Origin: Kaistella carnis
GTDB taxonomy: Bacteria; Bacteroidota; Bacteroidia; Flavobacteriales; Weeksellaceae
NCBI RefSeq assembly: GCF_003860585.1
Contig: NZ_CP034159.1
Span: 1,612,001-1,676,000 of the forward strand
Length of the DNA stretch: 64,000 nucleotides
Direction of reading: 5' to 3'
Shown here: in pieces, positions 757-18,919 of the stretch
Layout: every line of letters begins with the position of its first letter
How positions within the stretch are numbered: position 1 is the stretch's first letter
The notes under the pieces: model-generated
Told to the model about the DNA's origin: nothing
Database searches by the model: none
The model's input: the letters and a program-made list of their open reading frames with translations, nothing else
Translations under genes and position numbers: made by a program

Positions 757-1386
757 TTTCGGTCTTTTGATATTTGGAATTTTCAGTTCAGATTTGTTTT
801 GCAAAGAACTATGGGATTCAAACATTATCATATTTTTTTCAACAACAGATCTCCAATCTAAGATTGGTTTTCCGATGGCGTTTTTCCAATCCGATTTATC
901 CCATTGATGAAATTTGTGAATCAATACGTCATCTAATTTTTCGGAATAATTTGGTAACGTTTTGGAAAAACTCATAAACTGTTGTAATGTTGGATATCGA
1001 GAAAATGAACTATTTGCAATAATTTTTGGTTCTGGATCTCGATATAATTCTTCAATCGAAATTTCTTTTGTCTCAACTATTTTCGGAATTTCTTTGGGTA
1101 ATTCATTTTCATTCAAAACGAAACGATTCGGGAAACCAGGATTTCTGTGATAATCTAAAATCCCCAATTGTTTTAGTTTATTTTTCGCAGTAATTACCGT
1201 TTGTCTGGAAAGTCCAAGTTCTCTTGCCATCTCGTAATCCGACAGTACAATTTCCTTTTGAAGTTCTTCGCATTTGTAAAGTATAAATGTAAAAACAACA
1301 ATTGTGTTTGAGCCAATTTTGTTCTTAGAATTTAATTCAAAAATTTTTTGAAATAAAGTTGAGGGAAAGAGATTAATATTTTTCAT
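748..1386 (-). CDS. winged-helix DNA-binding protein of the integrated element
   Basis: The 212-residue protein has a likely winged-helix domain in its N-terminal half (about 40-95). The segment EMARELGLSRQTVITAKNKL reads as a helix-turn-helix, followed by a short GILDYHR-x-PGFPNRFVL wing. The C-terminal half is basic and polar with several tryptophans and no motif I know. This architecture resembles replication-initiation or copy-control proteins of plasmids and integrative elements, but no catalytic motif is visible. Its start overlaps the stop of the Toprim gene by 4 bases (ATGA), so the two are translationally coupled. It may bind the iteron array upstream of the Toprim gene; that is an inference. 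Confidence 0.65.
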   Translation of the reverse strand: MKNINLFPSTLFQKIFELNSKNKIGSNTIVVFTFILYKCEELQKEIVLSDYEMARELGLSRQTVITAKNKLKQLGILDYHRNPGFPNRFVLNENELPKEIPKIVETKEISIEELYRDPEPKIIANSSFSRYPTLQQFMSFSKTLPNYSEKLDDVLIHKFHQWDKSDWKNAIGKPILDWRSVVEKNMIMFESHSSLQNKSELKIPNIKRPKVD

Positions 1387-2267: not shown

Positions 2268-2302
2268 TGCAGTAAAGTTTTGGGGTTGAGTTTTGGGGAA
2301 AG

Positions 2303-2457
2303 TTTGATGAATTGATGAGGAAACGCTGTATTTAATTGTATATAACCTAGTTACACACTCATCAAACGCTCATCGTCTCATCAAACTTCAATTTATTTAC
2401 TCATCAAACACTCATCAAAAAACAGTGTTTTCAAATTTGATGAGTACTTTGATGAGT
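2303..2457. repeat. iteron-like array, consensus ACTCATCAAAC
   Basis: Near-identical 9-11 base words crowd this gap between the primase-helicase and Toprim genes. In the ACTCATCAAAC direction: 2357-2367, 2376-2386, 2399-2409 and 2410-2420, plus a degenerate copy at 2368-2375. In the opposite direction (TTTGATGAGT): 2436-2445 and 2448-2457, with weaker copies at 2303-2311 and 2312-2319. Several neighbours start 11-12 bases apart, about one helical turn. The array is typical of a replication origin (iterons) or a multi-site operator. Its place beside replication genes favours an origin; this is an inference. Confidence 0.65.
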
Positions 2458-2488
2458 AGTAATTCATTGATTTTCTTTTCATTATCAA

Positions 2489-3727: not shown

Positions 3728-4101
3728 AATTTAGATTTTAGATTAAATTCTGCTGAAGTTTTTCTAAAATTCTTTTTAAAATCTGCAGTTGCTTCAGATT
3801 CGATTTCCTGCAAAGTTTTCTTTCTTCCTTTGGAAATCCACTCCAATAGTTCCTCCTCGAAAAAATAAAGTTTCTTCCCATTTTTATAGCAGGGGATTAA
3901 TCTTTTGCGCACAAGAGTGTAAACGGTAGGTTTGGCTTTTCCAATAATTTGGCAGGCTTCCGTTATATCTATTGGAATTCTTTTTTGCGGAACTTGCTGT
4001 GGTTGCTTTACTTCTACCAAAAGTTTTATTATCGCAATTTCGCTGACCAGATGCGCCACTGCTTTTGGTAGATTTTCAAATGAGATCTCATTACTCTCCA
4101 T
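3724..4101 (-). CDS. MerR/excisionase-type HTH protein
   Basis: The 125-residue protein carries a single HTH_17-type domain at about residues 45-95 (ITEACQIIGKAKPTVYTLVR, then a basic wing and FFEEELLEWI). It is preceded by a helical segment and followed by a lysine-rich tail. Proteins of this build act as excisionases (directionality factors for the tyrosine recombinase) or as local repressors. It is first in the segment downstream of a strong terminator hairpin (4139-4187) and is coupled to the primase-helicase gene by a 4-base overlap. Confidence 0.7.
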   Translation of the reverse strand: MESNEISFENLPKAVAHLVSEIAIIKLLVEVKQPQQVPQKRIPIDITEACQIIGKAKPTVYTLVRKRLIPCYKNGKKLYFFEEELLEWISKGRKKTLQEIESEATADFKKNFRKTSAEFNLKSKL

Positions 4102-4132
4102 AACTGTTGTTTTTGATTGTTATGGTGCAAAG

Positions 4133-4187
4133 AAAAAAAGTGATTCATCTGTGATGGGCGCAAACACGCAATCACAGAGGAATCACT
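4133..4187 (-). terminator. strong inverted repeat with T tract, terminator inside the element
   Basis: AGTGATTCATCTGTGAT (4139-4155) and ATCACAGAGGAATCACT (4171-4187) pair at 16 of 17 positions over a 15-base loop that itself has GCG/CGC. On the minus strand the stem is followed by a run of seven T. It separates the integration half of the element from the replication half. Confidence 0.65.
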
Positions 4188-4213
4188 TTATAAACACTTC
4201 GTTTTGTGATTTT

Positions 4214-4996
4214 TTATGTCTTTTGGTAGTCTGCCAAATTTTCTAGAATTTTGATAATCCCTTTTTTAGGTTCATCTTTCAGGTGTGATTTGATACTTTC
4301 TAGATCAATATCATCAAGCGAAACGAAAACATTTTTTAGTAGTTTTGAAACTTCCTCCTGTTTTATTGGTCTAAAATGATTCCAGATATTCCAGCCGAAG
4401 TGATAAAGGTCTAGATTTGTTAAGCCATTTGTGTAAATAGAAATATTATTAAGAATATCTTCTTTTATTGAATATAAATTTACCGCGTCGCAAAGTGCAT
4501 CAAGATCTTCATCCTTTAAGTATAAAATAAATTGATTTCGAGTATAATCTAAAGCGAGTTGTAATTTTTCACTTTCAATCTGTTGCTTTTGCTGAAGTTG
4601 GTTTTTTCTTATAGAATCAAGATTTACCTTTTCCGAAGTTTGAACCTTAATATCTTCCTTTGAATCTTGAATTAACTGATTTGTTGTATTGTCATCAATT
4701 TGCCCAATTGTAATATTCTCATGATTTTTAGTTTGAATAAAATCTACAGTAGAATTTGTGGAATTATTCTTTTTGCGAAATATTTTTCTAAATCCAACAA
4801 TTATGACATCAAGAAACAAAATGATGATCGCATAAAATAAAATACTTAATGCTGTAATTGACCAAAATACAATATTTGCGGTATACTCATCACCACCTTT
4901 ACCAATAAAAGAGATTCTTGCTAACGCTCCCACGACTACACATACCACCAGAACCGAAAGGTAAATAACAATATATTCAAAATATTTCAAGTTCAT
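4214..4996 (-). CDS. two-TM membrane protein of unknown function in the integrated element
   Basis: I do not recognise this 260-residue protein. Two hydrophobic segments lie near the N-terminus (about 8-30, and 44-70, FWSITALSILFYAIIILFLD and following), then a basic RKIFRKKN stretch. The remaining 190 residues are hydrophilic and probably cytoplasmic, with a Q/K-rich possible coiled coil at about 125-150. The gene begins 4 bases inside the end of the recombinase gene, so it is coupled to it and probably belongs to the element rather than to the host. Membrane proteins in this position may act in entry exclusion or defence, but nothing in the sequence decides this. Confidence 0.6.
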   Translation of the reverse strand: MNLKYFEYIVIYLSVLVVCVVVGALARISFIGKGGDEYTANIVFWSITALSILFYAIIILFLDVIIVGFRKIFRKKNNSTNSTVDFIQTKNHENITIGQIDDNTTNQLIQDSKEDIKVQTSEKVNLDSIRKNQLQQKQQIESEKLQLALDYTRNQFILYLKDEDLDALCDAVNLYSIKEDILNNISIYTNGLTNLDLYHFGWNIWNHFRPIKQEEVSKLLKNVFVSLDDIDLESIKSHLKDEPKKGIIKILENLADYQKT

Positions 4997-6240
4997 TTTT
5001 GTAAGTTTTTCAATTGAATTGCTTTTGATGCTTCATTTTTCTTTTCATCAACAACTTTTGCATAAACCTGCGTAGTTTTTACGTTCGTATGACCAAGCAT
5101 TTTACTGACTGTATAAATATCTGTTCCGCTAGAAAGTTGCAAAGTAGCGAAAGTGTGTCTGAAATTGTGAAAGGTTATTTTTTTGGTAATTCCTGCACTT
5201 TCAATCCATTTTTTAAGTGGTCGAGAAATCCAAGCTGGGTTCGTTAAATCTTTAAAAACCAAATCAGTTGGACCGCCAGATTCACCGCAAAGTTGTAAAG
5301 CTTGTTTAGACATCGGCATATATTCTACACCTTTGGTCTTTTTTTGAGTGAAATTTATTCTGGCTTGATTGTTTTCAATACTTATTTCATTCCACGTCAA
5401 TTTTTGAATATCGGAATGTCGCAAACCTGTCAATGCAGAAAATAGCGCTGCACGTTTTAGAACATCAAGTTCGCATGGTGTTTCAACTAAAGTATTCAGT
5501 TCTTCCAGTGTTAAATATTCCCTTCTCGATTCTTCATGTGGAATTGATTTTACTTTAGCCGCAATATCAATTGTAAAATAGCCATCGATAAACGCTTCTT
5601 TCAGTGCAGCTTTGAAAACAGAAAAATAGGTTGAAGCTGTATTTTGAGAAATTATCGCATCTTTATTGCTACCACTTTTTGCAGTCAACAAATACGATTT
5701 GAAATTTTCACAGAATTTTGTATTAATCTGTGAAAACATAATTTTTTCACCTCCGAAATCTTTTAGAAATTCTATCGAGCGATACCAATTTACCTGAATA
5801 GATTCGGAATTATTTTTATGCCTTTTATTGACAAGCAAATCAAAATATCTTATAAAATTCTCCTGAGATCTTTCTTTTTCCTCCTGCTGAATTATATCAA
5901 GCTCGTTATAAAGTTCAATGTTATCGTATTCTCTCTGTCTCAATTTTCGCAATGAATCTGCGTAAAACATGGTCTCGCGGTCATTTTCACTTTTGCAAAC
6001 GATAATTCCATTATCATCTCGTTTGGGTTTAAAAGAAACTGAATTTTGTGTTGTCCGTGCCGGTCTTTTCTTATCGAAATCTACAGTTGTTACACTCCGG
6101 TTCAAGTATTCCCGAATTCTTTGAGGATCATTTTTACCTTGAACCATTACTGGATAACTTTCCAAATAAATGAACCATTCTCTTCTGAATTCGGCTTTTC
6201 GCAATCGTACGGTAACTTTGGTTTTTAATAACTCTTTCAT
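4993..6240 (-). CDS. tyrosine recombinase (integrase) of the element
   Basis: The 415-residue protein is a phage-integrase family recombinase of the Bacteroidetes type, with an arm-binding N-terminal region, a SAM-like core-binding domain (about 130-240) and a C-terminal catalytic domain. Catalytic residues are visible: R274 in TGLRHSDIQKL, H358-x-x-R361 in HNFRHTFATL, H384 in LGHTNVKTTQ, and the nucleophile Y393 in QVYAK. All key residues are present, so the enzyme looks active. It cuts and rejoins DNA at att sites for integration and excision. It is coupled by 4-base overlaps to the HTH gene before it and the membrane-protein gene after it. Confidence 0.92.
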   Translation of the reverse strand: MKELLKTKVTVRLRKAEFRREWFIYLESYPVMVQGKNDPQRIREYLNRSVTTVDFDKKRPARTTQNSVSFKPKRDDNGIIVCKSENDRETMFYADSLRKLRQREYDNIELYNELDIIQQEEKERSQENFIRYFDLLVNKRHKNNSESIQVNWYRSIEFLKDFGGEKIMFSQINTKFCENFKSYLLTAKSGSNKDAIISQNTASTYFSVFKAALKEAFIDGYFTIDIAAKVKSIPHEESRREYLTLEELNTLVETPCELDVLKRAALFSALTGLRHSDIQKLTWNEISIENNQARINFTQKKTKGVEYMPMSKQALQLCGESGGPTDLVFKDLTNPAWISRPLKKWIESAGITKKITFHNFRHTFATLQLSSGTDIYTVSKMLGHTNVKTTQVYAKVVDEKKNEASKAIQLKNLQK

Positions 6241-6806
6241 TTTCCGTCAAAAATTTTGTCAATTAAATTTTTAGGTGCGTACACAAAACTTCCCACCTTT
6301 TTAGTTGGGATTTTGTTTCTTTTAATGACACTATTTACCGTTCCCGGATCAGCATGGTATTTTGCACTAATTTCTGAAATTGTATAGCAAGTACCTATTT
6401 CAAAAACTTGTTTTTTCTCAATCTTTTCTTTTTCCGGCGCAATTTTTACCGCAGTAAATATTGATTCCAAATCCGACTTACAAACTCGGGTTAATCTTTC
6501 ACCAAAATTATGTGCTGAAATTCTATTGCTTTTGATTAATCTATAAATTGTATCCTTCGACATTCCAAAAAATACAGCAGCTTCACCTACAGAAAGATAG
6601 GGTCGAGTTTGAATTTCCGCAATTTTATTTATTGATTTTTCCAATAAAACTTGTTTCGCTTCTACTTCCTGAACTAGTCTTTTTTGTCTTTTTACAGATT
6701 TTTCCGAACAAAGTTTGCTACAAAATCTTGTAGTAACTGTTTTTGCTTCAAATGGTTTCTCACAAAATTCACAAAGTTTTGGTATCCTAAGATTACTAAA
6801 GCCCAT
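6237..6806 (-). CDS. zinc-finger and HTH protein, probable excisionase or regulator
   Basis: The 189-residue protein begins with a four-cysteine zinc-ribbon-like knuckle (C13-x-x-C16 and C29-x3-C33). A MerR/excisionase HTH follows at about 70-115 (LSVGEAAVFFGMSKDTIYRL), and a second weaker HTH at about 138-185 (YTISEISAKYHADPGTVNSV). Two DNA-binding modules next to the recombinase suggest an excisionase or a regulator of excision that bridges sites. It is the most upstream gene of the element's operon. The 231-base gap before dnaK holds a short palindrome, AGCAGA-TTG-TCTGCT (6864-6878), and the dnaK terminator. Confidence 0.7.
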   Translation of the reverse strand: MGFSNLRIPKLCEFCEKPFEAKTVTTRFCSKLCSEKSVKRQKRLVQEVEAKQVLLEKSINKIAEIQTRPYLSVGEAAVFFGMSKDTIYRLIKSNRISAHNFGERLTRVCKSDLESIFTAVKIAPEKEKIEKKQVFEIGTCYTISEISAKYHADPGTVNSVIKRNKIPTKKVGSFVYAPKNLIDKIFDGK

Positions 6807-9097: not shown

Positions 9098-9484
9098 TTA
9101 TTTTTTCAATGTAAGAATATATTCTACCATTTTTTTCGCATTGTCTTTACTCATTCCTGCGTGTGGTGTCATCGGTATTTCTCCCCAATTTCCCTTTCCT
9201 CCTTCAATAATTTTAGTGGCAAGCATTTCAATATCTGCTTCGGTATACTTATCAGCAACCTCCTGATAAGATGGTCCTACCACTCGGGTATCCACTTTAT
9301 GACACGTTAAGCAGTCTCCGCCTTCAATGAGTGCCAGACCTTCATTCTTACCGGCTGCGGCAGAATCAACGACTTTAGCCACCGGTTCTTCCAGCATCAC
9401 ATTAGAATCCATATTAGGATTACTTTCTTTCTTACTACATGAAACAACTGCGATAAGCCCACAGATTACTAAGTATTTTTTCAT
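9098..9484 (-). CDS. lipoprotein cytochrome c (c551/c552-like)
   Basis: The 128-residue protein has a lipoprotein signal ending at VVSC (C16) and one class I cytochrome c domain. The heme motif is C-L-T-C-H (about residues 58-62), and the distal methionine is probably in EIPMTPH. The fold is the small c551/c552 type (about 80 residues after a spacer). It should carry electrons in the periplasm from the quinol chain to a terminal reductase or peroxidase. It diverges from the second cytochrome gene, and both share an intergenic region with a Crp/Fnr-type palindrome, so a role as electron donor to NosZ is likely but not proven. Confidence 0.85.
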   Translation of the reverse strand: MKKYLVICGLIAVVSCSKKESNPNMDSNVMLEEPVAKVVDSAAAGKNEGLALIEGGDCLTCHKVDTRVVGPSYQEVADKYTEADIEMLATKIIEGGKGNWGEIPMTPHAGMSKDNAKKMVEYILTLKK

Positions 9485-9553
9485 TCCCTTATTTTTAAAT
9501 TTCTACTCTAATTTTTAGTGACACAAATTTCACGATAATTATCATATGATGAA

Positions 9554-9599
9554 TATGATTACGGTCATAACAAAAATTGGGCAAATGATGGTAATTTTG
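9554..9599 (+). promoter_or_regulatory. Crp/Fnr-type site plus -7 box before the nos cytochrome gene
   Basis: TATGA-TTACGG-TCATA (9554-9569) is a perfect 5-6-5 palindrome of the Crp family. Its centre (9561.5) is 30.5 bases upstream of the first base of TAATTTTG (9592-9599). If the box is at -7, the site lies near -41.5, a class II activator position. A further palindrome ATCATATGAT lies at 9541-9550. Confidence 0.6.
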
Positions 9600-9621
9600 A
9601 ACATACAAAAAAATAAATATA

Positions 9622-10128
9622 ATGAAATCATTAAGAACAATTGCACTCGCAACACTAGCCTTTACTTTATTCTCTTGTGGAGGTGACGGAAAAACAGATT
9701 CTATCCCATCGGGTTCAACTGAAACTACTGCAGCTTCAACCACAGACGAAAGCACTGCTGAAATGGAAGCTAACGCAGCCAAATACGACCCAAACAGAGG
9801 TATTGGAAAACATGAGAATGTAGATGTTAGTAAATTCGATCCAGCCATGGCAGCTGCAGGTAAAAAAGTAGCAGACGTAAAATGTACTTCTTGCCACAAA
9901 CCTACAGATGAGAAATTAGTGGGACCAGGATGGTTAGGCGTAACCAAAAGACAAACTCCAGAATGGATTATGAACTTTATTTCAAATCCAGATCCAATGA
10001 TCGACGTAGATCCAGAATTGCAGAAACAACTTGAACTTTGTTTGGTGAGAATGCCGAATCAAGGTCTTAGCGATACAGAAGCCAGAGAAGTTCTCGAATA
10101 CATGAGAGAAATCGACGGAGCAAAATAA
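9622..10128 (+). CDS. lipoprotein cytochrome c of the nos cluster
   Basis: The 168-residue protein starts with a lipoprotein signal (lipobox LFSC, C19). A low-complexity S/T/E linker of about 35 residues follows, then a class I cytochrome c domain with heme motif C-T-S-C-H (about 92-96). The methionine of LVRMPNQGLSD is the probable distal ligand. The long tether would let the heme domain reach across the periplasm. It lies directly upstream of nosZ in the same direction and is the best candidate for its electron donor, in the way NosC cytochromes serve clade II NosZ. A hairpin terminator separates the two genes, so their expression may differ. Confidence 0.85.
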   Translation: MKSLRTIALATLAFTLFSCGGDGKTDSIPSGSTETTAASTTDESTAEMEANAAKYDPNRGIGKHENVDVSKFDPAMAAAGKKVADVKCTSCHKPTDEKLVGPGWLGVTKRQTPEWIMNFISNPDPMIDVDPELQKQLELCLVRMPNQGLSDTEAREVLEYMREIDGAK

Positions 10129-10139
10129 TTTTCCTACCC

Positions 10140-10185
10140 GATGAATGGTAGATGCAGTTAACAATCTGCCATTCATCTTTTCTTG
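10140..10185 (+). terminator. terminator or attenuator between the cytochrome and nosZ
   Basis: GATGAATGGTAGAT (10140-10153) pairs with ATCTGCCATTCATC (10164-10177) at 13 of 14 positions over a 10-base loop, and TTTTCTTG follows. It would cut down read-through from the cytochrome gene into nosZ. Confidence 0.65.
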
Positions 10186-10221
10186 TTCCTTTCTATTCCG
10201 AAAAGAATTAATCAATTATAT

Positions 10222-12216
10222 ATGAAAACTTACCAAAAAATTGGACTTGCGGCTCTTGCTGCGGTCAGTATGGTCGCATGTAAACCCAAAGGCACTAAAA
10301 ACGTCGTTTCGGGTGATGCAGCCGAGAAAGTGTATGTAGCTCCAGGAAAACATGATGAAGTTTACAACTTTGTCAGTGGAGGTTTTAATGGCCAAATTAG
10401 TGTGGTGGGATTGCCAAGTGGACGAACTTTAAAAATCGTTCCGGTCTTCTCTGTACACCCGGAAAACGGCTACGGCTTCAGTGAAGAAACAAAGCCGATG
10501 CTTGAAACTTCTCACGGTTTTGTACCTTGGGATGACCAGCATCACCTTGCGCTGTCGCAGACAAAAGGTGAAATTGACGGTCGATATTTATTTGCAAATG
10601 CGAACAATACCCCTCGTGTTGCCAAAATTGACCTCACAACCTTTAGAACCACAGAAATCCTCGAGATCCCAAACTCTGCAGGAAATCACTCCTCCCCTTT
10701 CCTTACAGAAAACACAGAGTATGTAGTTGCTGGAACACGTTTCGCAGTGCCTGCTGATGGCCAGGGAGACGTACCGATCGAATCATTTAAAGAAAACTTT
10801 AAAGGATATCTTTCTTTCATAGGAATTGGTAAAGAAGATGGAAAAATGGATATCACTTTCCAAATTGAGGCGCCAGGTTTTAACTTTGACTTGTCACACG
10901 CAGGTAAAGGTAAATCACACGGTTGGTTCTTCTTCTCTTGCTATAACTCTGAGCAAGCCAACACGCTGCTGGAAGTAAATGCTTCTCAAAATGAGAAAGA
11001 CTTCATCATGGCAGTGAACTGGAAAAAAGCAGAAGAATATCTGAAAGCTGGGAAAGCTAAAAAAATGGCCGTAGAATATGCTCACAATACCTTTGATGAG
11101 TCTACCCAAATGGCGAAATCAGAAATTTTAAAAGAGGTTTCTGTACTATCTGCTAAAGAATTAAAAGACATCTGTTATTTAATTCCATGTCCAAAATCTC
11201 CGCATGGTTGTGATATTGATCCAACAGGAGAATATATTATCGGTTCTGGAAAATTGGCCGCTTTGATTCCTGTTTTCAGTTTTGATAAATTGATGCAAGC
11301 TATTGAAAAGAAAGATTTCTCTGGTGAATTTGATGGAATTCCTATTCTAAAATATGAATCAGTTTTACACGGTGAAGTTCAAAAACCAGGTTTAGGACCA
11401 CTCCACACTGAGTTTGACGGAAAAGGAAATGCATATACTTCCATGTTCGTTTCTTCTGAGATCGTGAAATGGGACATCAAAACTTGTAAAGTTCTAGACA
11501 GACAGCCAACTTTCTATTCTACAGGTCACCTGATGGTTGTAGGAGGAGATACTGCAAAACCTTACGGAAAATATCTTGTTGCTTACAACAAAATCACAAA
11601 AGACAGATATCTGCCAACAGGTCCAGAATTGGCACAATCTGCTCAGCTCTTTGACATTAGTGGTGATAAAATGAAACTGCTTCTTGATTTCCCAACCATT
11701 GGTGAGCCGCATTACGCACAGGCAGGTCCGGCAGAATTGTTTACTAAAAACCAGGTGAAATTCTATAAACTGGAAGATAACAAACACCCATACGTAACCA
11801 AAGGTGAAGCCGAAAGTAAAGTGGTTAGAGAAGGAAATAAAGTTCATGTTTATATGACTTCTATCCGTTCTCACTTTGCTCCAGATAACATCGAAGGTGT
11901 AAAAGTAGGTGACGAAGTTTATTTCCACGTAACTAACCTAGAACAAGACTGGGATGTTCCTCATGGATTCGCAATCAAAGGTGCACAAAATGCCGAACTC
12001 CTGATCATGCCGGGTGAAACCAGTACGCTGAAATGGGTTCCATTGAAAGCAGGAATGTATCCGATGTATTGTACAGATTTCTGTTCTGCTTTACACCAAG
12101 AGATGCAGGGATATGTAAGGGTATCACCAGCAGGCAGCAACACTCCACTTATTTATTCATTGAATAATAAAAAGGACAACGCTCAAAGCCCAGTAAAACA
12201 AGGTGAAACGAAGTAA
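10222..12216 (+). CDS. nosZ: nitrous oxide reductase NosZ, clade II, predicted lipoprotein
   Basis: NosZ reduces N2O to N2 in the periplasm. The 664-residue protein has the beta-propeller that holds CuZ, with ligand histidines in ETSHGFVPWDDQHH (H98, H107, H108), SHGWFFF, CPKSPHGCDIDPTG and GLGPLHTEFDG. A C-terminal cupredoxin domain carries CuA: C617-x3-C621, H625 and M628 in CTDFCSALHQEM. The signal is of Sec type, with no twin arginine, which together with the neighbours places it in clade II. It ends in SMVAC-K (C20), so the protein is probably lipid-anchored. I chose the ATG at 10222 because the frame extension upstream spoils the signal peptide. Electron donors and the maturation genes flank it. 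Confidence 0.97.
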   Translation: MKTYQKIGLAALAAVSMVACKPKGTKNVVSGDAAEKVYVAPGKHDEVYNFVSGGFNGQISVVGLPSGRTLKIVPVFSVHPENGYGFSEETKPMLETSHGFVPWDDQHHLALSQTKGEIDGRYLFANANNTPRVAKIDLTTFRTTEILEIPNSAGNHSSPFLTENTEYVVAGTRFAVPADGQGDVPIESFKENFKGYLSFIGIGKEDGKMDITFQIEAPGFNFDLSHAGKGKSHGWFFFSCYNSEQANTLLEVNASQNEKDFIMAVNWKKAEEYLKAGKAKKMAVEYAHNTFDESTQMAKSEILKEVSVLSAKELKDICYLIPCPKSPHGCDIDPTGEYIIGSGKLAALIPVFSFDKLMQAIEKKDFSGEFDGIPILKYESVLHGEVQKPGLGPLHTEFDGKGNAYTSMFVSSEIVKWDIKTCKVLDRQPTFYSTGHLMVVGGDTAKPYGKYLVAYNKITKDRYLPTGPELAQSAQLFDISGDKMKLLLDFPTIGEPHYAQAGPAELFTKNQVKFYKLEDNKHPYVTKGEAESKVVREGNKVHVYMTSIRSHFAPDNIEGVKVGDEVYFHVTNLEQDWDVPHGFAIKGAQNAELLIMPGETSTLKWVPLKAGMYPMYCTDFCSALHQEMQGYVRVSPAGSNTPLIYSLNNKKDNAQSPVKQGETK

Positions 12217-12228
12217 ATTATTTTAATT

Positions 12229-12256
12229 AAAGGGCAGTTTTCACTGCCCTTTTTCT
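12229..12256 (+). terminator. nosZ terminator
   Basis: AGGGCAGT (12231-12238) and ACTGCCCT (12243-12250) around TTTC, followed by TTTTCTTTTT. Confidence 0.85.
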
Positions 12257-12259
12257 TTT

Positions 12260-12321
12260 TATGATTGATATCATTTTGTAACAAACATTACAAAAGAAAA
12301 CCAGCAAAGTCATTAACTTTA
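12260..12321 (+). promoter_or_regulatory. two Crp-type palindromes and -7-like box before the nos maturation genes
   Basis: TATGA-TTGATA-TCATT (12260-12275) is followed at once by TTTTGTAA-CAAACA-TTACAAAA (12274-12295), a perfect inverted repeat that also fits a 5-6-5 format (TGTAA-N6-TTACA). The second site is centred 29.5 bases before TAACTTTA (12314-12321), close to TAnnTTTG. The first would then sit about one and a half turns further upstream. Confidence 0.5.
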
Positions 12322-12365
12322 CTAGACCAAATATTAAAGAAATAAGCACCTTAAAAAAAATCAAA

Positions 12366-12953
12366 ATGAAAACAAACGCAATACAAAAATGGAGCAAAGT
12401 ACTTCTAATCCTTTTGGGCATCGGATTAATCGTCTCGATTTTTGTTCCCATCTGGTCCATCTTTCTGAATGCTCCGCAATATCCGGAAGGTCTTGCCATG
12501 TACATTCACTCCAATAAAGTATCTGGAGAATACTCGATTATTAATGGCTTGAACCATTATATCGGAATGAAAGAAATACACGCCGATGAATTTTGGGAAT
12601 TTACAATATTGCCTTACGCACTGGGAATTTTCGCGATTTTGTGTTTCCTCGCCGCGTTCCTTAACAGCAGAAAAATTCTTTATACCTTAACAGGTGTTTA
12701 TCTACTCTTCGGTGTAGGATTCGTATTCGATTTCTGGAGATGGCTTTACGACTACGGTCACAACCTTAACCCTCAAGCAGCGATTATCGTACCCGGAATG
12801 TCTTATCAACCGCCGTTACTTGGTTACAAGCAGTTGCTTAATTTTGAAGTATGGTCTTATCCAAATATTGGTGGTGGCATTATGATAGGAGCCGGTGTAA
12901 TTTTGTTTATCTTAGCGATTATGGAATTTAAATTGGCTAAAAAATCAGTTTGA
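12366..12953 (+). CDS. four-TM membrane protein of the nos cluster
   Basis: The 195-residue protein has about four membrane segments (roughly 12-32, 78-98, 104-124, 165-188). The first loop (GLNHYIGMKEIHADEF) and the last loop are probably periplasmic; histidines and methionines in these loops could bind metal or heme, but no known motif is present. Its place right after nosZ and before nosL is that of nosB in clade II clusters, which is also a polytopic membrane protein of unknown role. I do not see enough to call it NosB. It begins a likely operon nosL-nosD-nosF-nosY under a Crp-type promoter, separated from nosZ by a terminator. Confidence 0.75.
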   Translation: MKTNAIQKWSKVLLILLGIGLIVSIFVPIWSIFLNAPQYPEGLAMYIHSNKVSGEYSIINGLNHYIGMKEIHADEFWEFTILPYALGIFAILCFLAAFLNSRKILYTLTGVYLLFGVGFVFDFWRWLYDYGHNLNPQAAIIVPGMSYQPPLLGYKQLLNFEVWSYPNIGGGIMIGAGVILFILAIMEFKLAKKSV

Positions 12954-12999
12954 TCATTTACCTTTATTCCAAAAAAAGAAGTTCAATAAAATTAAAATT

Positions 13000-13413
13000 A
13001 TGAAATTATTTAAAAACGTTTTAGTTGCCGGAAGTGTAATGACTTTAATGGCTTGTGCAGAAAAAGGCCCACAGGAAATCGCAGTCGGGAAAGATCAGTG
13101 TGACAACTGTAAAATGACCATTTCTGATCAAAAATATGCCACCGAACTTTTAACGGAAAAAGGCAGAATATATAAATTTGATGACATCAGCTGTCTGAAG
13201 GACTATGAATCGTCCAACCCCGAAAACGCAAAGAATGCTAAAACGTACGTTGTTGATTTTCCTACGGGTGAATTTATCGAAACAAATACGGCCACTTTAA
13301 TTAAAGGCGGCGAGATCAAAAGTCCAATGGGCGGAAATACCCAGGCTTTTAAAGATAAAGCCACCGCAGAAAAATCAGCGGCAACACTTGGAGCAACTTT
13401 AACCACCCTATAA
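13000..13413 (+). CDS. nosL: NosL copper-binding lipoprotein
   Basis: The 137-residue protein has a lipoprotein signal ending LMAC (C19) and the NosL core. A C-D-N-C-K-M motif at about 38-43 supplies the Cu(I)-binding Cys and Met. The strand TELLTEKGRIYKFDDISCL and the GGEIKSPMGG turn follow. NosL delivers copper for building CuZ of NosZ in the periplasm. The gene lies 46 bases after the membrane-protein gene and 43 bases before nosD, in the usual order. Confidence 0.93.
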   Translation: MKLFKNVLVAGSVMTLMACAEKGPQEIAVGKDQCDNCKMTISDQKYATELLTEKGRIYKFDDISCLKDYESSNPENAKNAKTYVVDFPTGEFIETNTATLIKGGEIKSPMGGNTQAFKDKATAEKSAATLGATLTTL

Positions 13414-13456
13414 ATCTACAAACGCGTAATCCATAGCGATGACCGTAGGTATGAAT

Positions 13457-14701
13457 ATGAAAAACAAAATATTTTACTTCCTCGCTTTACTCCTTCCGAT
13501 TTTTTGCTTTTCAGCTACGATAAAAGTCGGTAAAAGCGGAGATTTTAAAACAATTAAAGAAGCAATCGCCGCAGCAAAAAGCGGCGATACTATTTTCGTT
13601 GAAAAAGGCATTTACCGGGAAGGTACGATCGATATTGAAAAACCGATAAGCCTTATCGGGATCGACCGACCAATTTTAGACGGAAATTTAAACGGAGAGA
13701 TCATCACCTTTCGAGCCGACCGCATTACATTAAAAGGTTTTAAACTCATCAACAGTGGACGCGAAGAAATTCGCAGTGTAGCGGCAGTTCACATTTACAC
13801 GAGCACCGATTCGGTCATCGAAAACAATATTTTCGAAAATAATTATTTCGCCATTTATGTGCAGCGTGGAAACCGTATCCTTATTAATCGTAATAAAATC
13901 ACCACGAACCGCGGGAATTCTCAGGAAAATTCCGGCGATGGTATTCACATTTTGGGCAGCCGTGAAATCTGGATAAAAAACAATTTCATCAGCGGTCACA
14001 AAGATGGCATTTACTTAGAAAAAAATGCAAAATGTTACGTATATCACAACCTGTCCCGAAATAATTTACGCTACGGGCTTCACTTTATGTTCTCAAATGA
14101 CAGCGTGTACACCTCCAATGTTTTTGATAATAATGGAGCCGGTGTGGCCGTAATGTATGCGATGAATGTAAGTATGTTTAACAATAAATTCATTAATAAC
14201 TGGGGCGACAGCGTGTACGGACTTTTATTAAAGGAAATTTCTTACAGTAAAATTAAAGGCAACACTTTTCAAAACAATACGACCGGAGTTTTTGCCGACG
14301 GCGCCACCAAAATCGATTTCTACACGAATCAATTCGAAGATAATGGGTGGGCCATAAAAATAAATGCCAATTGTATGGAAAACCGCGTAATGAGAAATAA
14401 TTTCATTAATAATACTTTCGACATCAGCACAAGCGGTTCTACCGTCATGAATGATTTCCGTTTTAATTACTGGGATAAATATGAAGGCTATGATCTGGAT
14501 AAAGACAAAATAGGCGATGTGCCCTTTCATCCGTTGAGTTTATATTCCGTTTTAGTGGAGCAAAATCCTTCGGTGATGTTGCTTTTCAGAAGTTTTCTGG
14601 TCGATATGCTGGACCGTACAGAAAAAATAATTCCAAGCCTTACGCCCGAAAGTTTTGTAGACGATCAACCTTTAATGAAACCTCTGCAAACGCCAAATTA
14701 A
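13457..14701 (+). CDS. nosD: NosD, periplasmic right-handed beta-helix maturation protein
   Basis: The 414-residue protein has a Sec signal (KNKIFYFLALLLPIFCFSA) and then KVGKSGDFKTIKEAI, the usual opening of carbohydrate-binding/sugar-hydrolysis (CASH) parallel beta-helix proteins. Many short turns of the type NxxxNNxxGI/Y run through to about 340. NosD works with the NosF-NosY ABC complex in supplying or assembling the CuZ site of NosZ. I placed the start at the ATG just before the signal peptide; in-frame ATGs at 13439 and 13451 would add 6 or 2 residues and are possible. It sits in the usual order between nosL and nosF. Confidence 0.93.
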   Translation: MKNKIFYFLALLLPIFCFSATIKVGKSGDFKTIKEAIAAAKSGDTIFVEKGIYREGTIDIEKPISLIGIDRPILDGNLNGEIITFRADRITLKGFKLINSGREEIRSVAAVHIYTSTDSVIENNIFENNYFAIYVQRGNRILINRNKITTNRGNSQENSGDGIHILGSREIWIKNNFISGHKDGIYLEKNAKCYVYHNLSRNNLRYGLHFMFSNDSVYTSNVFDNNGAGVAVMYAMNVSMFNNKFINNWGDSVYGLLLKEISYSKIKGNTFQNNTTGVFADGATKIDFYTNQFEDNGWAIKINANCMENRVMRNNFINNTFDISTSGSTVMNDFRFNYWDKYEGYDLDKDKIGDVPFHPLSLYSVLVEQNPSVMLLFRSFLVDMLDRTEKIIPSLTPESFVDDQPLMKPLQTPN

Positions 14702-14770
14702 GGCGACCAATTTTAAAGTAAAAAAATATTTTCAAATAAAGAAAAGCTGATAATGAAGGCAGCTCATGAT

Positions 14771-15484
14771 ATGATTGAAATTAAGAATTTAAGCAAAAAA
14801 TTTAATAAGTTCACGGCGCTGAATAAGGTGAATTTATCTTTTAACAACGGCCATTCTATCGCACTGATTGGTCCAAACGGATGCGGAAAAACCACCATGA
14901 TCAAATGCATTCTTGGTTTAAATGTAGTAGAAGACGGCGATGTTTTGGTGGATGGGAAAAGCGTAAAAGAAGATTATCGCTATCGTGAAATCATCGGTTA
15001 CATGCCCCAAATTGGCCGATATCCGGAAAATATGACCATTGAGGAAACCATTAAAATGATCAAGGACACCCGGAAAATTAAAGATGTTACTCTTGATACC
15101 GAACTTTTGGAAGCTTTCGAACTGGAAAAGATATATGACAAAAAAATGCGCACCCTTTCCGGCGGAACGACGCAAAAAGTAAGTGCAGTGCTTGCATTTC
15201 TTTTTAATCCGAAAATCATCATTCTGGATGAACCCACGGCGGGACTCGATCCATTGGCAACCGAGATCCTAAAAAATAAGATCATCAAAGAAAAAAACAA
15301 AGGAAAATTAATTCTGATCACCTCTCATTTACTAAGCGAACTGGATGACATCATCACAGAGATCGTTTTTATGAATGAAGGTCAAGTGGTGGTACACCAG
15401 TCGGTAGAAGATCTGAAAAAAGAAACACAAACCGAGAAAATCTCTGACGGAATTATTTCTATCTTAAAAAGCATGAAAAAATGA
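14771..15484 (+). CDS. nosF: NosF, ABC transporter ATPase
   Basis: The 237-residue protein is an ABC ATPase with all motifs: Walker A GPNGCGKTT, Q-loop YMPQIGRYPE, signature LSGGTTQK, Walker B IIILDEPTAGLDP and H-loop ITSHL. With NosY it forms a membrane complex that drives a step in CuZ maturation together with NosD. The start at MIEIKNLSKKF fits the family; an ATG at 14753 would add 6 residues. Its stop overlaps the nosY start by 4 bases. Confidence 0.92.
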   Translation: MIEIKNLSKKFNKFTALNKVNLSFNNGHSIALIGPNGCGKTTMIKCILGLNVVEDGDVLVDGKSVKEDYRYREIIGYMPQIGRYPENMTIEETIKMIKDTRKIKDVTLDTELLEAFELEKIYDKKMRTLSGGTTQKVSAVLAFLFNPKIIILDEPTAGLDPLATEILKNKIIKEKNKGKLILITSHLLSELDDIITEIVFMNEGQVVVHQSVEDLKKETQTEKISDGIISILKSMKK

Positions 15485-16248
15485 ACAAGATTGCACGCTT
15501 CATCCTATTTGATATTTTAAAAAACAAAATCGTTATTATGTATACGATTTTACTTTTCATTATTTCCTGGTCAGTTTTAGGCTTGGATAATAATGAAACC
15601 AAAGCCACCTTAAGTTTACTCAACGTCGTACTGCTCGTTGTGCCTTTGGTGAGTATTATTTTTTCTACGATCTATGTCTATAATAGCAGCCAGTTTATCG
15701 AACTGCTCCTGAGCCAGCCTGTTCCGCGGGGGAAAGTTTGGTTTAATTTATTTCTAGGACTTTCCACGGCTTTGATTCTTGCTTTTCTTCTCGGATGTGG
15801 AATTCCCATTCTACTCTACTCTTCCATTGAGACCGGTCTTTCGGTTTTGATTACAGGAATTTTTCTGTCGATCATTTTTACATCATTGGCGATGTTGGCG
15901 GCCATCTTCAGCCGGGACCGTGCGAAAGGAATTGGGATTTCTATTTTTATCTGGATGTTTTTTGCTATTATTTACGACGGAATTTTATTACTCCTTATGT
16001 TTCAGTTTGCCGATTATCCTATTGAAGGAATTATGGCGACTTTGGCAGCAATTAATCCCATCGGACTTTCGCGAATTTTCGTACTTCTTCAATTAGATGT
16101 TGCAGCGATGTTAGGTCAGGCGGGCGCAATTTTCAAACAGGTATTTGGTGCCGGTGGCGGAATGGTTATTTCGCTTCTCATTCTTACGATCTGGACTTTC
16201 GTACCCTTCTTATGGTCGCTCATTTTATTCAACAAAAAGAACCTTTAA
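15481..16248 (+). CDS. nosY: NosY, ABC-2 type membrane protein
   Basis: The 255-residue protein has six membrane segments (about 15-35, 50-72, 97-120, 126-146, 160-180, 232-250) and the SQPVPRGKVWF loop typical of NosY-type ABC-2 permeases. It partners NosF. Translation is coupled to nosF by an ATGA overlap. It ends the maturation operon; a weak hairpin (AGCTGA-N6-TCAGCT, 16272-16289) follows. Confidence 0.92.
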   Translation: MNKIARFILFDILKNKIVIMYTILLFIISWSVLGLDNNETKATLSLLNVVLLVVPLVSIIFSTIYVYNSSQFIELLLSQPVPRGKVWFNLFLGLSTALILAFLLGCGIPILLYSSIETGLSVLITGIFLSIIFTSLAMLAAIFSRDRAKGIGISIFIWMFFAIIYDGILLLLMFQFADYPIEGIMATLAAINPIGLSRIFVLLQLDVAAMLGQAGAIFKQVFGAGGGMVISLLILTIWTFVPFLWSLILFNKKNL

Positions 16249-16305
16249 TGATTAAAATATGACTTAAAAACAGCTGATAAAACTCAGCTATTTAATGACT
16301 TATCA

Positions 16306-16350
16306 TGTGAATAGAATCATATAAAACAGAGATTTTTATTGTTAATTTTA
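16306..16350 (+). promoter_or_regulatory. Crp/Fnr-type site plus -7-like box before the fasciclin gene
   Basis: TGTGA-ATAGAA-TCATA (16306-16321), centred 29.5 bases upstream of TAATTTTA (16343-16350). Same geometry as the other sites of the nos cluster. Confidence 0.5.
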
Positions 16351-16402
16351 TAGTGAAATTAAAAGACAAAGAATTTAAAACTAACAAATAAAAATAGAAA
16401 CT

Positions 16403-16957
16403 ATGAAAAAATCAATCATGATCCTTGCAGTGGTTGCCCTTGCTTTGTCATCTTGCAACAAGACTGAAGGAACAGCGACAGTTACTGAAACTGCCACCGC
16501 AGAAACCACTCCAGGAGGACAGGAAACCGTAAAAGATGATGACAGTGCACCGGATATTGTAAAATTGGCGGTAAGCAATCCGGATCTTTCAACTTTAGTA
16601 AAAGCGGTACAGGCAGCAGGTTTAGCCACATCACTAAGCAACGCAGGTCCTTTCACCGTTTTCGCTCCTACCAATGAAGCATTTTCAAAATTGCCTGCGG
16701 GAGTTTTAGATGACTTAATGAAGCCTGAAAATGCAGATAAATTGAATGATATTCTGAGCCATCACACCTATGTGGGCGTTATAAAAACAGATCAGTTGAC
16801 AGACGGACAAAACTTAGGAATGGTCGATGGAAAACCCATCAGCATCAAAATGGTTGATGGAAAGCCCGTGGTGAACGGCACTATTAATATTTTGGCTTCC
16901 GTGCCCGCTTCCAACGGAATTGTGCACGTTGTAGATTCTGTAATTTTACCGGATTAA
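16403..16957 (+). CDS. fasciclin (FAS1) domain lipoprotein
   Basis: The 184-residue protein has a lipoprotein signal (lipobox LSSC, C18), a 30-residue T/E-rich linker, and one FAS1 domain from about 48 to the end. Both conserved boxes are present: H1 GPFTVFAPTNEAFSKLP and the C-terminal NGIVHVVDSVILP, with the central HHTYVG before them. FAS1 domains usually mediate adhesion or protein contact. Here the gene lies at the end of the nos cluster behind a promoter with the same Crp-type site, which suggests a role during N2O respiration. What it binds is unknown. Confidence 0.85.
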   Translation: MKKSIMILAVVALALSSCNKTEGTATVTETATAETTPGGQETVKDDDSAPDIVKLAVSNPDLSTLVKAVQAAGLATSLSNAGPFTVFAPTNEAFSKLPAGVLDDLMKPENADKLNDILSHHTYVGVIKTDQLTDGQNLGMVDGKPISIKMVDGKPVVNGTINILASVPASNGIVHVVDSVILPD

Positions 16958-16992
16958 AAAGAAATTCCCTAAATTAAGTTTATTGTCTTGTT

Positions 16993-17025
16993 GCACTTCC
17001 TGAAATTTCGGGAAGTGCTTTTTTT
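16993..17025 (+). terminator. terminator of the fasciclin gene
   Basis: GCACTTCC (16993-17000) and GGAAGTGC (17011-17018), with the inner GAAATTTC able to extend the stem, followed by seven T that run into the stop codon of the convergent gene. Confidence 0.85.
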
Positions 17026-18238
17026 ATAGCGATTTCTTCTTTAAACTGAAGAAAATGAGGAGCAGGGAAAACATCATCAGTAAAGACACCGCGAGCAGTA
17101 TTTCCGCGGAAAAAGGCACCGCAACATATTTGATTGAAAGCACGCCCATGATACCCAAAACCGCTTCATTTAAAAATATTCCGAGAAGTAATAATTTTAG
17201 GCCGGTGATTACGGGTTTGGTCATTTTGAAAACATTGGTCGCTAAAATCTGATTCAGCAGAAACACAGAAACACACATTAACAAAATTAAGTGCAGATAG
17301 GCGATGACCACGTTTCTGAAACCAAATGCAAACTGGCTCAACACCGGAATATTGGAACCCAGTTGTAACATAATTTTTGCAAAAAACGCAAAACCGACAT
17401 ACATTAAAACAAAACGTTGCAAAGCTGAAAAACTCAAGACGACTTTGGTCCAGTTCTGTTTCACAACCATGTATAATTTCACTGCTCCAATGGTTTGCGC
17501 GATGGTTGCCAAAACAATAGCAATGAAAATCCAAAGCGGTAGTTTCATCCAAAGTACAGAAAGGCCATAGCCTATTAGTGTTCCAAAAAACAGAAGCCAG
17601 AATATGAGTTTGGTGTCTTTTTCAGATATTTCTGCGCCGATATTTCGGAGCGACAAAAGCAAAAATCCAATACAGCTAAAGATGAAAAATCCGTTGTACT
17701 GAAAATGTAAATAGTAATAAGTAGACGCCAAATATAAGGTTTGAGTTACGTTATCGGACATCATCATATAACTCAACATGAATACGCCGGCAGAGGAAAT
17801 GACAGCAAAAAACAACCCTCCCAGGAACCAGGATTTTATCAGATTCCGCTTGCCCTTCAGATCCCGAAGTAAGAAAAAGAAGAAAACGAAACTCGTCAAC
17901 AGTGCTGCGGTAGACCCCGCAATTGAAAGCCAGTAATATCCCTTATAAATAAAACTTGGAATCATGATATAGGCCGAAACCGCATTGACAATTAATAAAA
18001 CATTGTATTTCTTCAGTTGTTCTTCTGATAATATCCCTTGTAAATACCGAATAATGAGAACATAAATAATTTGGGTAATCCACCCATAAAAGGCGAAATG
18101 CGAATGCGCCTCCTGTACATGTTTCTGATCGACCATGGGCAGAGAAAATGCAATTTTGTAACGCATCAAAACGCCTAAAACAGAAACCATAAAAAAATTC
18201 AGAACTGAAAAACGGAGCCAAAAAATAATATTCTTCAT
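17024..18238 (-). CDS. polytopic membrane protein, heme-copper-oxidase-like or NnrS-like
   Basis: The 404-residue protein has about 12 membrane segments. Conserved-looking histidines lie within them: QEAHSHFAFYGW (about 42-53), YYYLHFQYNGFF (about 176-187) and IAYLHLILL (about 313-321). The H-x-H-x(3)-YG pattern recalls subunit I of heme-copper oxidases/NO reductases and the heme-copper protein NnrS, which helps cells under NO stress. The full set of subunit I ligands is not evident, so it is probably a relative rather than a true oxidase. It is downstream of the Crp/Fnr gene, with its own Crp-type site. The -7 box lies only 5 bases from the ATG, so its mRNA may be nearly leaderless. Confidence 0.7.
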   Translation of the reverse strand: MKNIIFWLRFSVLNFFMVSVLGVLMRYKIAFSLPMVDQKHVQEAHSHFAFYGWITQIIYVLIIRYLQGILSEEQLKKYNVLLIVNAVSAYIMIPSFIYKGYYWLSIAGSTAALLTSFVFFFFLLRDLKGKRNLIKSWFLGGLFFAVISSAGVFMLSYMMMSDNVTQTLYLASTYYYLHFQYNGFFIFSCIGFLLLSLRNIGAEISEKDTKLIFWLLFFGTLIGYGLSVLWMKLPLWIFIAIVLATIAQTIGAVKLYMVVKQNWTKVVLSFSALQRFVLMYVGFAFFAKIMLQLGSNIPVLSQFAFGFRNVVIAYLHLILLMCVSVFLLNQILATNVFKMTKPVITGLKLLLLGIFLNEAVLGIMGVLSIKYVAVPFSAEILLAVSLLMMFSLLLIFFSLKKKSL

Positions 18239-18242
18239 CTTA

Positions 18243-18288
18243 CAAAATTAAGTCGAAAAATCTGATTAATATTATGATTTAGGTCACT
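18243..18288 (-). promoter_or_regulatory. Crp/Fnr-type site plus -7 box before the HCO-like gene
   Basis: TATGA-TTTAGG-TCACT (18273-18288 on the plus strand) is centred 30.5 bases upstream of TAATTTTG on the minus strand (18250 to 18243), the same spacing as at 9554-9599. Confidence 0.55.
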
Positions 18289-18891
18289 TTAGAAGATAAT
18301 TTTGCCGTTGACAATTTTTAACTTGTCTTCCTTTTCCATTTTTTTTATCGTACGAATGACTGTTTCGATTCGAAGGCCCGTCATTTGAGAAATTTCTTTA
18401 CGTGTGAGTTTGATCAGCACCGATTCGTCCACACAACCATTTTCCCGTTTGTAGTTTTCTAACTGTTGCAGAATTCGGTCTTCGGGATTAAATAAAACAA
18501 TCTGCTTTAAAAGCTGACTTTTCTTCAGGGATTTTTTGGCGACGGAAAGCGTAAACTGAAAGAGTTTTTCGGGATGTAATATTAAATAATCAATAAGACA
18601 TTGGCGCTTAAATTTTATAATATCAACTTTCGCAGAACTTACCTCAACGTTCCCTGGAAAAGGCTCGTTCAGCAAAACGGCAGGTTCCGCAAAAAACTGA
18701 CCGCTTTTAACTTTATGCTGAAGTAGTTCTTTTCCTTTTTCTGTAAAATTAGAAACCGACAACTCTCCTTCTTTTAGATAATGAAAATATTGGGAGCACT
18801 CACCCTCATTTAAAATAATATCACCTTTGTAATATTTTTTAAAATCCGCGTTCGTACTTTCGAGTAGGTCGTCATCCAATAAAAATTTCAT
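18289..18891 (-). CDS. Crp/Fnr family transcription regulator linked to the nos cluster
   Basis: The 200-residue protein has a cyclic-nucleotide-binding-type beta-barrel (about 15-115, with GDIILNEGECSQYFHYLKEG and SGQFFAEPAVLL), a dimer helix, and a C-terminal Crp-type winged helix at about 150-195 (LTRKEISQMTGLRIETVIRT). No N-terminal cysteine cluster of the Fnr iron-sulfur type is present; the three cysteines are scattered. It could therefore sense heme-NO as Dnr-type proteins do, or another ligand. Four nearby promoters carry a TRTGA-N6-TCAYW palindrome at matching distance from the -7 box, which makes this the likely activator of the nos genes. Confidence 0.88.
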   Translation of the reverse strand: MKFLLDDDLLESTNADFKKYYKGDIILNEGECSQYFHYLKEGELSVSNFTEKGKELLQHKVKSGQFFAEPAVLLNEPFPGNVEVSSAKVDIIKFKRQCLIDYLILHPEKLFQFTLSVAKKSLKKSQLLKQIVLFNPEDRILQQLENYKRENGCVDESVLIKLTRKEISQMTGLRIETVIRTIKKMEKEDKLKIVNGKIIF

Positions 18892-18911
18892 CTGGTAGAG
18901 TTGTAGTTTTT

Positions 18912-18919
18912 CAAATATA
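18912..18919 (-). promoter_or_regulatory. -7 box of the Crp/Fnr gene
   Basis: TATATTTG on the minus strand, 21 bases upstream of the start at 18891. No Crp-type palindrome is seen here, so autoregulation is not suggested. Confidence 0.5.

Follow-up and report, generated by a model that had tools for sequence, protein, structure and literature searches.

A Crp/Fnr-family regulator in the nos locus of Kaistella carnis as the probable activator of a nitrogen-oxide regulon in Bacteroidota

The subject of this work is the nitrous oxide (N2O) reductase, or nos, locus of Kaistella carnis (Weeksellaceae), contained in a 64,000-nt stretch of contig NZ_CP034159.1 (positions 1,612,001–1,676,000, forward strand), hereafter the window, to which coordinates refer unless a genome position is given. 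The Crp/Fnr-family regulator encoded at 18289–18891 is quite probably the dedicated activator of a Bacteroidota nitrogen-oxide regulon, which, judging from its sites, it would control through the operator TATGAYYNNRRTCATA placed at class II distance. The operator, its spacing from the promoter box, its conservation, and its co-occurrence with the regulator family are documented below; direct binding and activation, and the signal, we infer from them. In the proposed mechanism, the regulator dimer would bind TATGAYYNNRRTCATA centered at about −41.5 or −42.5, just upstream of a TAnnTTTG element, and would act as a class II activator by recruiting RNA polymerase. Its targets in the window would be two cytochrome genes (one operator serving two divergent promoters), nosZ by way of the cytochrome gene nosC, a fasciclin lipoprotein gene, and the gene of a protein resembling haem-copper oxidases (HCO). 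Elsewhere in the genome they would include a copper-import operon and probably a truncated globin, and in denitrifying relatives the regulon would also take in the nitric oxide (NO) reductase.

Operators and promoter geometry in the window

The locus begins with a cytochrome c lipoprotein gene, cytL (9098–9484, minus strand; PF00034), divergent from a second cytochrome c gene, which we take to be nosC (9622–10128, plus; PF00034). These are followed by a Sec-type clade II nosZ (10222–12216, plus; TIGR04246, 935.5 bits, cut-off 625) and by the maturation genes nosB-like, nosL, nosD, nosF-like, and nosY-like (12366–16248, plus), the first of which has no family match and is named by position. Next come the fasciclin-domain lipoprotein gene, fas (16403–16957, plus; PF02469), the gene of the HCO-fold membrane protein, hco (17024–18238, minus), whose product lacks the conserved helix-7 histidines, and its partner gene, crp, for the regulator (18289–18891, minus), with the recognition helix ...GLRIETVIR....

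The initial annotation had placed four intergenic palindromes of the form TRTGA-N6-TCAYW in this locus and had given the distances from their centers to the first base of a promoter box; positions, intergenic location, and distances all proved correct. The palindrome TATGATTACGGTCATA (9554–9569) is common to the two divergent cytochrome promoters, its center lying 30.5 nt from the −7 box TAATTTTG of nosC (9592–9599, plus) and also 30.5 nt from the degenerate box GAAATTTG of cytL (9524–9531, minus), which has one mismatch. Upstream of fas, TGTGAATAGAATCATA (16306–16321) stands 29.5 nt from TAATTTTA (16343–16350), and between crp and hco, TATGATTTAGGTCACT (18273–18288) stands 30.5 nt from TAATTTTG on the minus strand (18250–18243). 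The fourth and weakly conserved palindrome, TATGATTGATATCATT (12260–12275), is 46.5 nt from its nearest box, TAACTTTA (12314); as had been noted before, it is the neighboring TGTAA-N6-TTACA palindrome TGTAACAAACATTACA (12277–12292) that has the 29.5-nt spacing from this box (12314–12321). In Flavobacterium psychrophilum, the −7 box TAnnTTTG is reported to occupy −12 to −5 (PMC9723704), and distances of 29.5/30.5 therefore correspond to −41.5/−42.5, the position of class II activators. By this predicted geometry, the promoters would belong to class II, where the dimer site is near −41.5.

In the window, TRTGA-N6-TCAYW gives 6 strand matches (4 places) against a shuffle mean of 1.46, the figure of 6 being attained in 1 of 100 shuffles. 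The genome-wide scan for this motif in combination with TAnnTTTR, which had been proposed as a check, showed the loose motif alone to be nonspecific: it has 48 unique sites, of which a naive open reading frame (ORF) call places 13 between genes, and 62 strand matches, the reversed pattern used as control giving 28. Five of the 48 carry TAnnTTTR at 29.5/30.5, namely those of nosC, fas, hco, a truncated globin gene (a site that slightly overlaps an opposite-strand ORF of the naive call), and one intragenic site. The strict TATGAYYNNRRTCATA occurs once, against twice for its reversed control. Motif frequency in the genome itself was thus rejected as proof, the loose motif being common and the strict one single, and the case rests on the spacing and on the relatives because this frequency is not specific.

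Conservation of the operators in relatives

A GTDB genome scan with the NosZ of the window yielded 121 relatives, and the best 80 loci were compared, with the window added. They come from Kaistella, Chryseobacterium, Cloacibacterium, Planobacterium, Flavobacterium, Terrimonas, Flavihumibacter, Ferruginibacter, Hydrotalea, Daejeonella, and many metagenome-assembled genomes. Neighboring genes were placed by naive ORF calls and blastp, and the skeleton TGA-N6-TCA was sought within 250 bp upstream, with expectations from mononucleotide shuffles and the window included in the totals. It was found before nosC in 68 of 79 regions (5.5 expected), fas in 49/55 (4.2), cytL in 22/22 (1.7), hco in 30/56 (4.0), and crp in 32/54 (4.0), the last region being common with a divergent nosC in several lineages; the crp of the window has no such palindrome within these 250 bp. 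Counts were 11/80 (5.8) for nosB, 4/37 (2.5) for nosL, 4/78 (5.8) for nosD, and 2/19 (1.6) for dnaK. The comparison of nos intergenic regions that had been suggested thus shows palindromes recurring before nosC, fas, and crp-hco, far above shuffles.

The consensus TATGAYYNNRRTCATA was refined from 123 sites, each having a box of no more than one mismatch 29.5–31.5 nt away; they were contributed by nosC (47), fas (39), hco (22), and cytL (15), a set that the palindrome shared by cytL and nosC can enter twice. At the second operator base, A is found in 94 sites, G in 25, T in 2, and C in 2. The spacing was then scored with a site model for which nosC, fas, hco, and cytL had served as the training set, together with an exact box at 29.5/30.5; because of this training, the fair part of the test is the contrast with off-register windows. 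Good sites with the box in register were present at 25/79 nosC, 32/55 fas, 9/56 hco, 5/54 crp, 1/22 cytL, and 1/80 nosB regions, and at 0/380 for nosZ, nosL, nosD, nosF, nosY, dnaK, and ppk combined, while the windows at 25.5/26.5, 33.5/34.5, and 37.5/38.5 gave 0–2 per gene. At least one good site precedes cytL, nosC, fas, hco, or crp in 76 of 80 loci; of the other four, L090 and L144 have no scorable upstream region, and L131 and L160 are real misses (L-numbers denote loci of relatives, and G-numbers, below, family genomes, G000 being that of K. carnis).

The regulon claimed in the initial annotation therefore holds in part. Sites at class II distance stand before nosC, fas, and hco, where conservation and in-register boxes also uphold the claim that chance is unlikely, and the divergent cytochrome is retained as a target, since its palindrome keeps the same distance from the degenerate GAAATTTG and a box with no more than one mismatch is found at 29.5–31.5 in 15 of 22 cytL regions. 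Control of the maturation operon is not supported in the form proposed: the nosB counts are 11/80 for the loose motif and 1/80 for a good site at the correct distance. The 12260 palindrome was rejected as its operator, as it is barely conserved and relatives give no support, and the adjacent TGTRA-N6-TTACA is found at that place in L082–L084 and the window only. In many Chitinophagales-type loci (among L107–L158), the nosC promoter has the variant TATGATTNNACGCATA in place of TATGAYYNNRRTCATA; the recognition helix of the regulator in these loci is similar (GLRVETVIR).

Co-occurrence of the operator with the regulator

The regulator belongs to the Crp/Fnr superfamily by its matches to PF00027 (45.8 bits, cut-off 27.5) and PF13545 (33.1, cut-off 27), and the genome holds 10 cNMP-binding domain matches. 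In its recognition helix, T163, R164, E176, T177, I179, and R180 do not vary among the 35 regulators compared. An Ile aligns with the R180 position of CRP, and since R180 has been linked to G at the matching operator base in a comparative study (PMC1274295), this Ile fits the preference for A over G at the second base (94/123 sites).

Co-occurrence was examined in 148 family genomes, classed by whether they encode a nos-type regulator (profile E ≤ 1e-64), an intermediate relative, or neither. TATGAYYNNRRTCATA is present in 44 of 45 genomes with a nos-type regulator (mean 2.22, reversed control 0.07) and in 44 of 45 with an intermediate relative (mean 3.60 vs. 0.33). The nos-type and neither classes differ with a Fisher p of 5e-15, on counts uncorrected for ancestry. 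As nosZ is above its cut-off in 51 of the 148 genomes, its presence and absence separate the possible causes. Among genomes without nosZ, the operator is present in 38/38 with an intermediate relative, 2/3 with a nos-type regulator, and 13/56 with none; among those with nosZ, the figures are 6/7, 42/42, and 2/2 (G002 and G079), respectively. The operator thus follows the regulator family even where nosZ is lacking. The 12-kb nosZ neighborhood of G002 contains a single partial palindrome and lacks boxed sites; in G079 (76% complete), one palindrome precedes nosZ, 29.5 nt from a box. In genus g21, rich in paralogues and with no nosZ above the cut-off, 19 of the 54 operators listed have a listed paralogue no more than 700 bp away, where 0.08 would be expected. 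Co-occurrence and adjacency support the regulator of the cluster itself as the putative reader of the sites.

Further Crp-family genes deserve mention. Loci L173–L189, mostly from genus g21, which belongs to the same family as K. carnis, represent large expansions of nos-regulator paralogues, in which one genome can have as many as 21 profile matches, with no nosZ above the cut-off; some of these g21-type paralogues adjoin the same operator. A 188-aa Crp-family gene occurs twice in K. carnis, at G000:C1:1426460 and 1461793 (separated by some 35 kb), and each copy is directly followed by TGTGACCTACATCACA and then by a DJ-1/PfpI-like gene (by eye), in the same order as crp-hco. Another Crp/Fnr gene (G000:C1:1411620–1412284), with an E..SR helix, is followed by the FNR-type box TTGACTTGAATCAA, 29.5 nt from TAACTTTG, before an Hsp20-like gene (by eye). 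This site, at 1412242, was not counted as a target, being of FNR type and beside another Crp gene with its own E..SR helix.

Predicted targets outside the window

A copper-import operon at genome position 2401624 has the site TGATGAAAATCA with the box TAATTTTG at 30.5. It encodes a secreted protein of 120 aa, a YtkA-like lipoprotein (at 25.4 bits narrowly short of the Pfam cut-off of 25.9), and an OprC-like TonB receptor, for which OprC is the sole PDB molecule matched at 1e-5 (1.1e-10) and TIGR01778 the best NCBIfam match (102.5 bits, cut-off 472.45). The lipoprotein has matches in 32 of 148 genomes. Among the 30 loci listed, 22 have the site with an exact box (0.03 expected), at 29.5 (8), 30.5 (8), or 31.5 (6); these are 22 of the 23 genomes with a nos-type regulator (G003 being the one without the site) and 0 of 7 otherwise.

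The truncated globin gene (PF01152; genome position 2307784) has a site 30.5 nt from TAATTTTG. The globin is matched in 136 genomes, and among the 30 loci listed, 13 have the site together with a box that is exact and in register (29.5/30.5); these include 10 of 24 with a nos-type regulator and 0 of 1 with an intermediate relative.

Cytochromes of the norC type were found in 19 of the 148 genomes, in 24 loci, of which 22 gave an ORF. The palindrome precedes 15 of them (1.3 expected), with an exact box at 29.5/30.5 in 12 (L192–L199 and L212–L215) and in 0 of the other 10; the site of L192 prompted this search, so 11 of the 12 are independent of that choice. The following gene is NorB in L212 (Pseudomonas aeruginosa-type NorB 3o0r, 7.9e-107) and NorB-like in L195 (6.1e-22). 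The K. carnis genome has no match to the norC-type cytochrome.

A second conserved element and other sites

Upstream of two operators lies a second conserved, palindrome-like element with a core of the GATAAA type. At nosC it is CGATAATTATCA (9533–9544, plus), whose center precedes that of the operator by 23 bp, and at fas it is TGATAAAACTCA (16275–16286, plus), centered 33 bp upstream of the operator center. Two or more TGA-N6-TCA occur in 21 of 55 fas regions (window included), and in 20 of these 21 (not in L109) the second palindrome, mostly of the TGATAAA or TGACAAA type, is centered about 32–34 bp upstream of the main operator. Inspection by eye of nosC regions from the Kaistella/Chryseobacterium/Cloacibacterium group shows a GATAAAnRTCA-like element 23 bp upstream. 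The spacing at nosC and that at fas are thus roughly one turn of the helix apart, and the element may be occupied by an additional dimer of the regulator or by a different Crp/Fnr protein.

The start codons of hco (18236–18250) and of the globin gene (G000:C1:2307749–2307760) lie exactly 4 nt past TAATTTTG, and leaderless mRNAs are therefore predicted for both. Of the hco sites, 24 were counted with the window, and 5 have the same offset, as does, by eye, the box of 29 of the 30 globin loci listed; leaderless mRNAs make up 5.5% in F. psychrophilum (PMC9723704). Weak candidate sites of the genome are at 265720 (31.5 from the box, before an outer-membrane protein), 877708 (before a resB/ccsA-like gene), and 2451220 (between ccoI-like and ccoS-like genes), all named by eye. 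Near dnaK, a mobile-element-like block (748–6806) encodes a tyrosine recombinase, a helix-turn-helix protein, and primase-like proteins, also by eye.

The proposed signal and the HCO-fold partner

NO or a related nitrogen oxide is the most likely signal, at about an even chance, because the predicted targets are NO reductase, globin, and N2O reductase. The regulators show no evident shared ligand for haem or an Fe-S center, since no alignment column has His or Cys in at least 18 of the 35 sequences.

The partner protein has no Pfam match at E 1, and its profile finds nothing among PDB sequences at E 1; only the comparison of folds gave matches. Its AlphaFold model (mean pLDDT 90.7) has as best Foldseek matches cbb3 oxidase and NO reductase (NOR), with probability 1.00 and about 11% identity. 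H45, H178, and H316 are invariant and H47 is present in 35 of 38 sequences, and no column of the seventh helix has 10 or more His. The protein thus retains some haem-type histidines and is without the helix-7 pair that would hold CuB, so that it departs from HCO subunit I, defined by the 12-helix fold with haem and CuB histidines. In loci L082–L161, crp was found in 53 of 80 and hco in 55 of 80, and wherever both were found (51/51) they are adjacent, on one strand, with crp first. This adjacency, a regulator without conserved His or Cys, and an HCO fold without helix-7 His led us to consider a two-part membrane-to-DNA sensor, in which a gas (NO, N2O, or O2) captured in the membrane by the HCO-fold protein would determine how active the cytoplasmic Crp/Fnr protein is, an idea that we regard as speculative and unlikely.

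Comparison with known regulators

The best PDB sequence match of the regulator is Escherichia coli CRP (1.8e-11), which shares the TGA-N6-TCA skeleton and has a class II distance of −41.5. CRP has Arg at the R180 position, where the regulator described here has Ile, and its R82/S83, which we take to be the contacts of the cyclic AMP phosphate, align by eye with G and N in the window regulator. The N-terminal cysteine cluster that holds the 4Fe-4S center of FNR has no counterpart, as no column has Cys in at least 18 of 35 sequences.

DNR, for which haem binding is characteristic, and NnrR are NO-responsive regulators of Proteobacteria, also Crp/Fnr proteins without the FNR cysteines, and their regulons include nos and nor. 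Here, nos is part of the predicted regulon in the window and in relatives, and a norC-type gene with NorB in relatives only. The operators differ, being CTTGATnnnnATCAAG for DNR and ctTTGcgnnnncgCAAag for NnrR (PMC1274295) vs. the 123-site consensus TATGAYYNNRRTCATA, and, unlike these proteins, the present regulator is paired with the Bacteroidota −7 box TAnnTTTG. A copper receptor, nosA, is in the predicted NnrR regulon of Brucella melitensis (PMC1274295); the TonB receptor of the copper operon resembles the OprC/NosA receptors in its match to OprC and in TIGR01778 as its best family, at a score below the cut-off of that family. NssA, NssB, and NssC of Wolinella succinogenes and the Nitrosophilus regulators are Crp/Fnr proteins linked to clade II nosZ as well, but they belong to Campylobacterota, their operator is TTGA-N6-TCAA, and the relevant passages of that report mention no fasciclin or HCO-like partner (PMC11539149). 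HcpR2 of Bacteroides, of the same phylum, is a Crp/Fnr regulator of nitrogen-oxide genes, with a different operator, GTAACnnnnGTTAC, and the target hcp (PMC1274295), a gene that was not looked for here. On sequence evidence, the regulon is real and is of the DNR/NnrR kind, in variant form.

Alternative explanations

Several observations weigh against a dedicated regulator with the targets proposed. The strict operator is also present in 15 of 58 genomes with neither regulator class (mean 0.34, reversed control 0.16), one draft genome with a nos-type regulator (G057) has none, and counts of genomes ignore shared ancestry. Among the genes, nosB is not supported as a target, and the loose palindrome exceeds shuffles two- to threefold at nosZ (17/81, 5.7 expected), nosF (13/73, 5.5), and nosY (10/73, 5.4), and more still at ppk (7/19, 1.3), whose upstream region in the window is common with crp. 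With the trained model, these fall to 3/81 for nosZ and 2/73 each for nosF and nosY, ppk retaining 4/19, and none of the four genes has a good site with the box in register. The sites of the copper operon and of the globin gene fit TATGAYYNNRRTCATA less strictly, and the globin site is present in 3 of the 5 listed loci without regulator (G075, G100, and G140) as compared with 10/24 nos-type loci, so that it does not follow the regulator. The lack of a shared His or Cys column in the regulators is a further point of this kind.

Another Crp/Fnr protein, chiefly the one encoded beside a ccoI-like gene (G000:C1:2453886–2454431), might read the operators or share them with the nos regulator. This seems unlikely to us, even though it has the same E..IR contact pattern (ATESAIR) and a similar protein is encoded in G075, G100, and G140, which keep the globin site and lack the nos regulator (its presence was checked in four genomes only). 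As many as 43 of the 58 genomes with neither a nos-type nor an intermediate regulator have no strict operator, and operators cluster at nos-regulator paralogues in genomes without nosZ. The copper operon, moreover, has no site in any of the 7 listed genomes outside the nos-type class, six of them with distant homologues (35%–46% identical); the sole close orthologue among these controls is that of G030 (70% identity; no regulator and no nosZ), and three of the seven have intermediate relatives (G029, G059, and G072, with only 65 bp examined in G072). That the regulator is instead a repressor, released by N2O, NO, or low O2, is improbable to a greater degree. The operator does adjoin the −33 region, and two Crp/Fnr genes of Nitrosophilus labii correlate negatively with nosZ expression (PMC11539149). 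The fixed 29.5/30.5 is, however, the distance of a class II activator, and target promoters hold the box at one distance across many genera. Repressor sites usually vary in position. Finally, palindromes arising by chance in AT-rich intergenic DNA are hardly credible as an explanation: the 48 loose sites and the lack of enrichment of the strict form in K. carnis would be compatible with it, but conservation at the target genes is far above shuffles, sites with an in-register box are confined to target genes, and for nosC, fas, and hco chance is already refuted. The palindrome at 12260 may still be of this origin.

Biological implications

The bacteria that remove N2O in soils and wastewater include Bacteroidota equipped with clade II NosZ. 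In a literature search covering few subscription journals, no regulator, operator, or regulon was found described for them. The proposed activator is a candidate for deciding when these bacteria respire N2O, and the analysis supplies a testable operator sequence and promoter geometry. The list of predicted targets links N2O respiration with copper import and NO handling, and, if true, the regulon would explain how soil and wastewater bacteria control the removal of a greenhouse gas.

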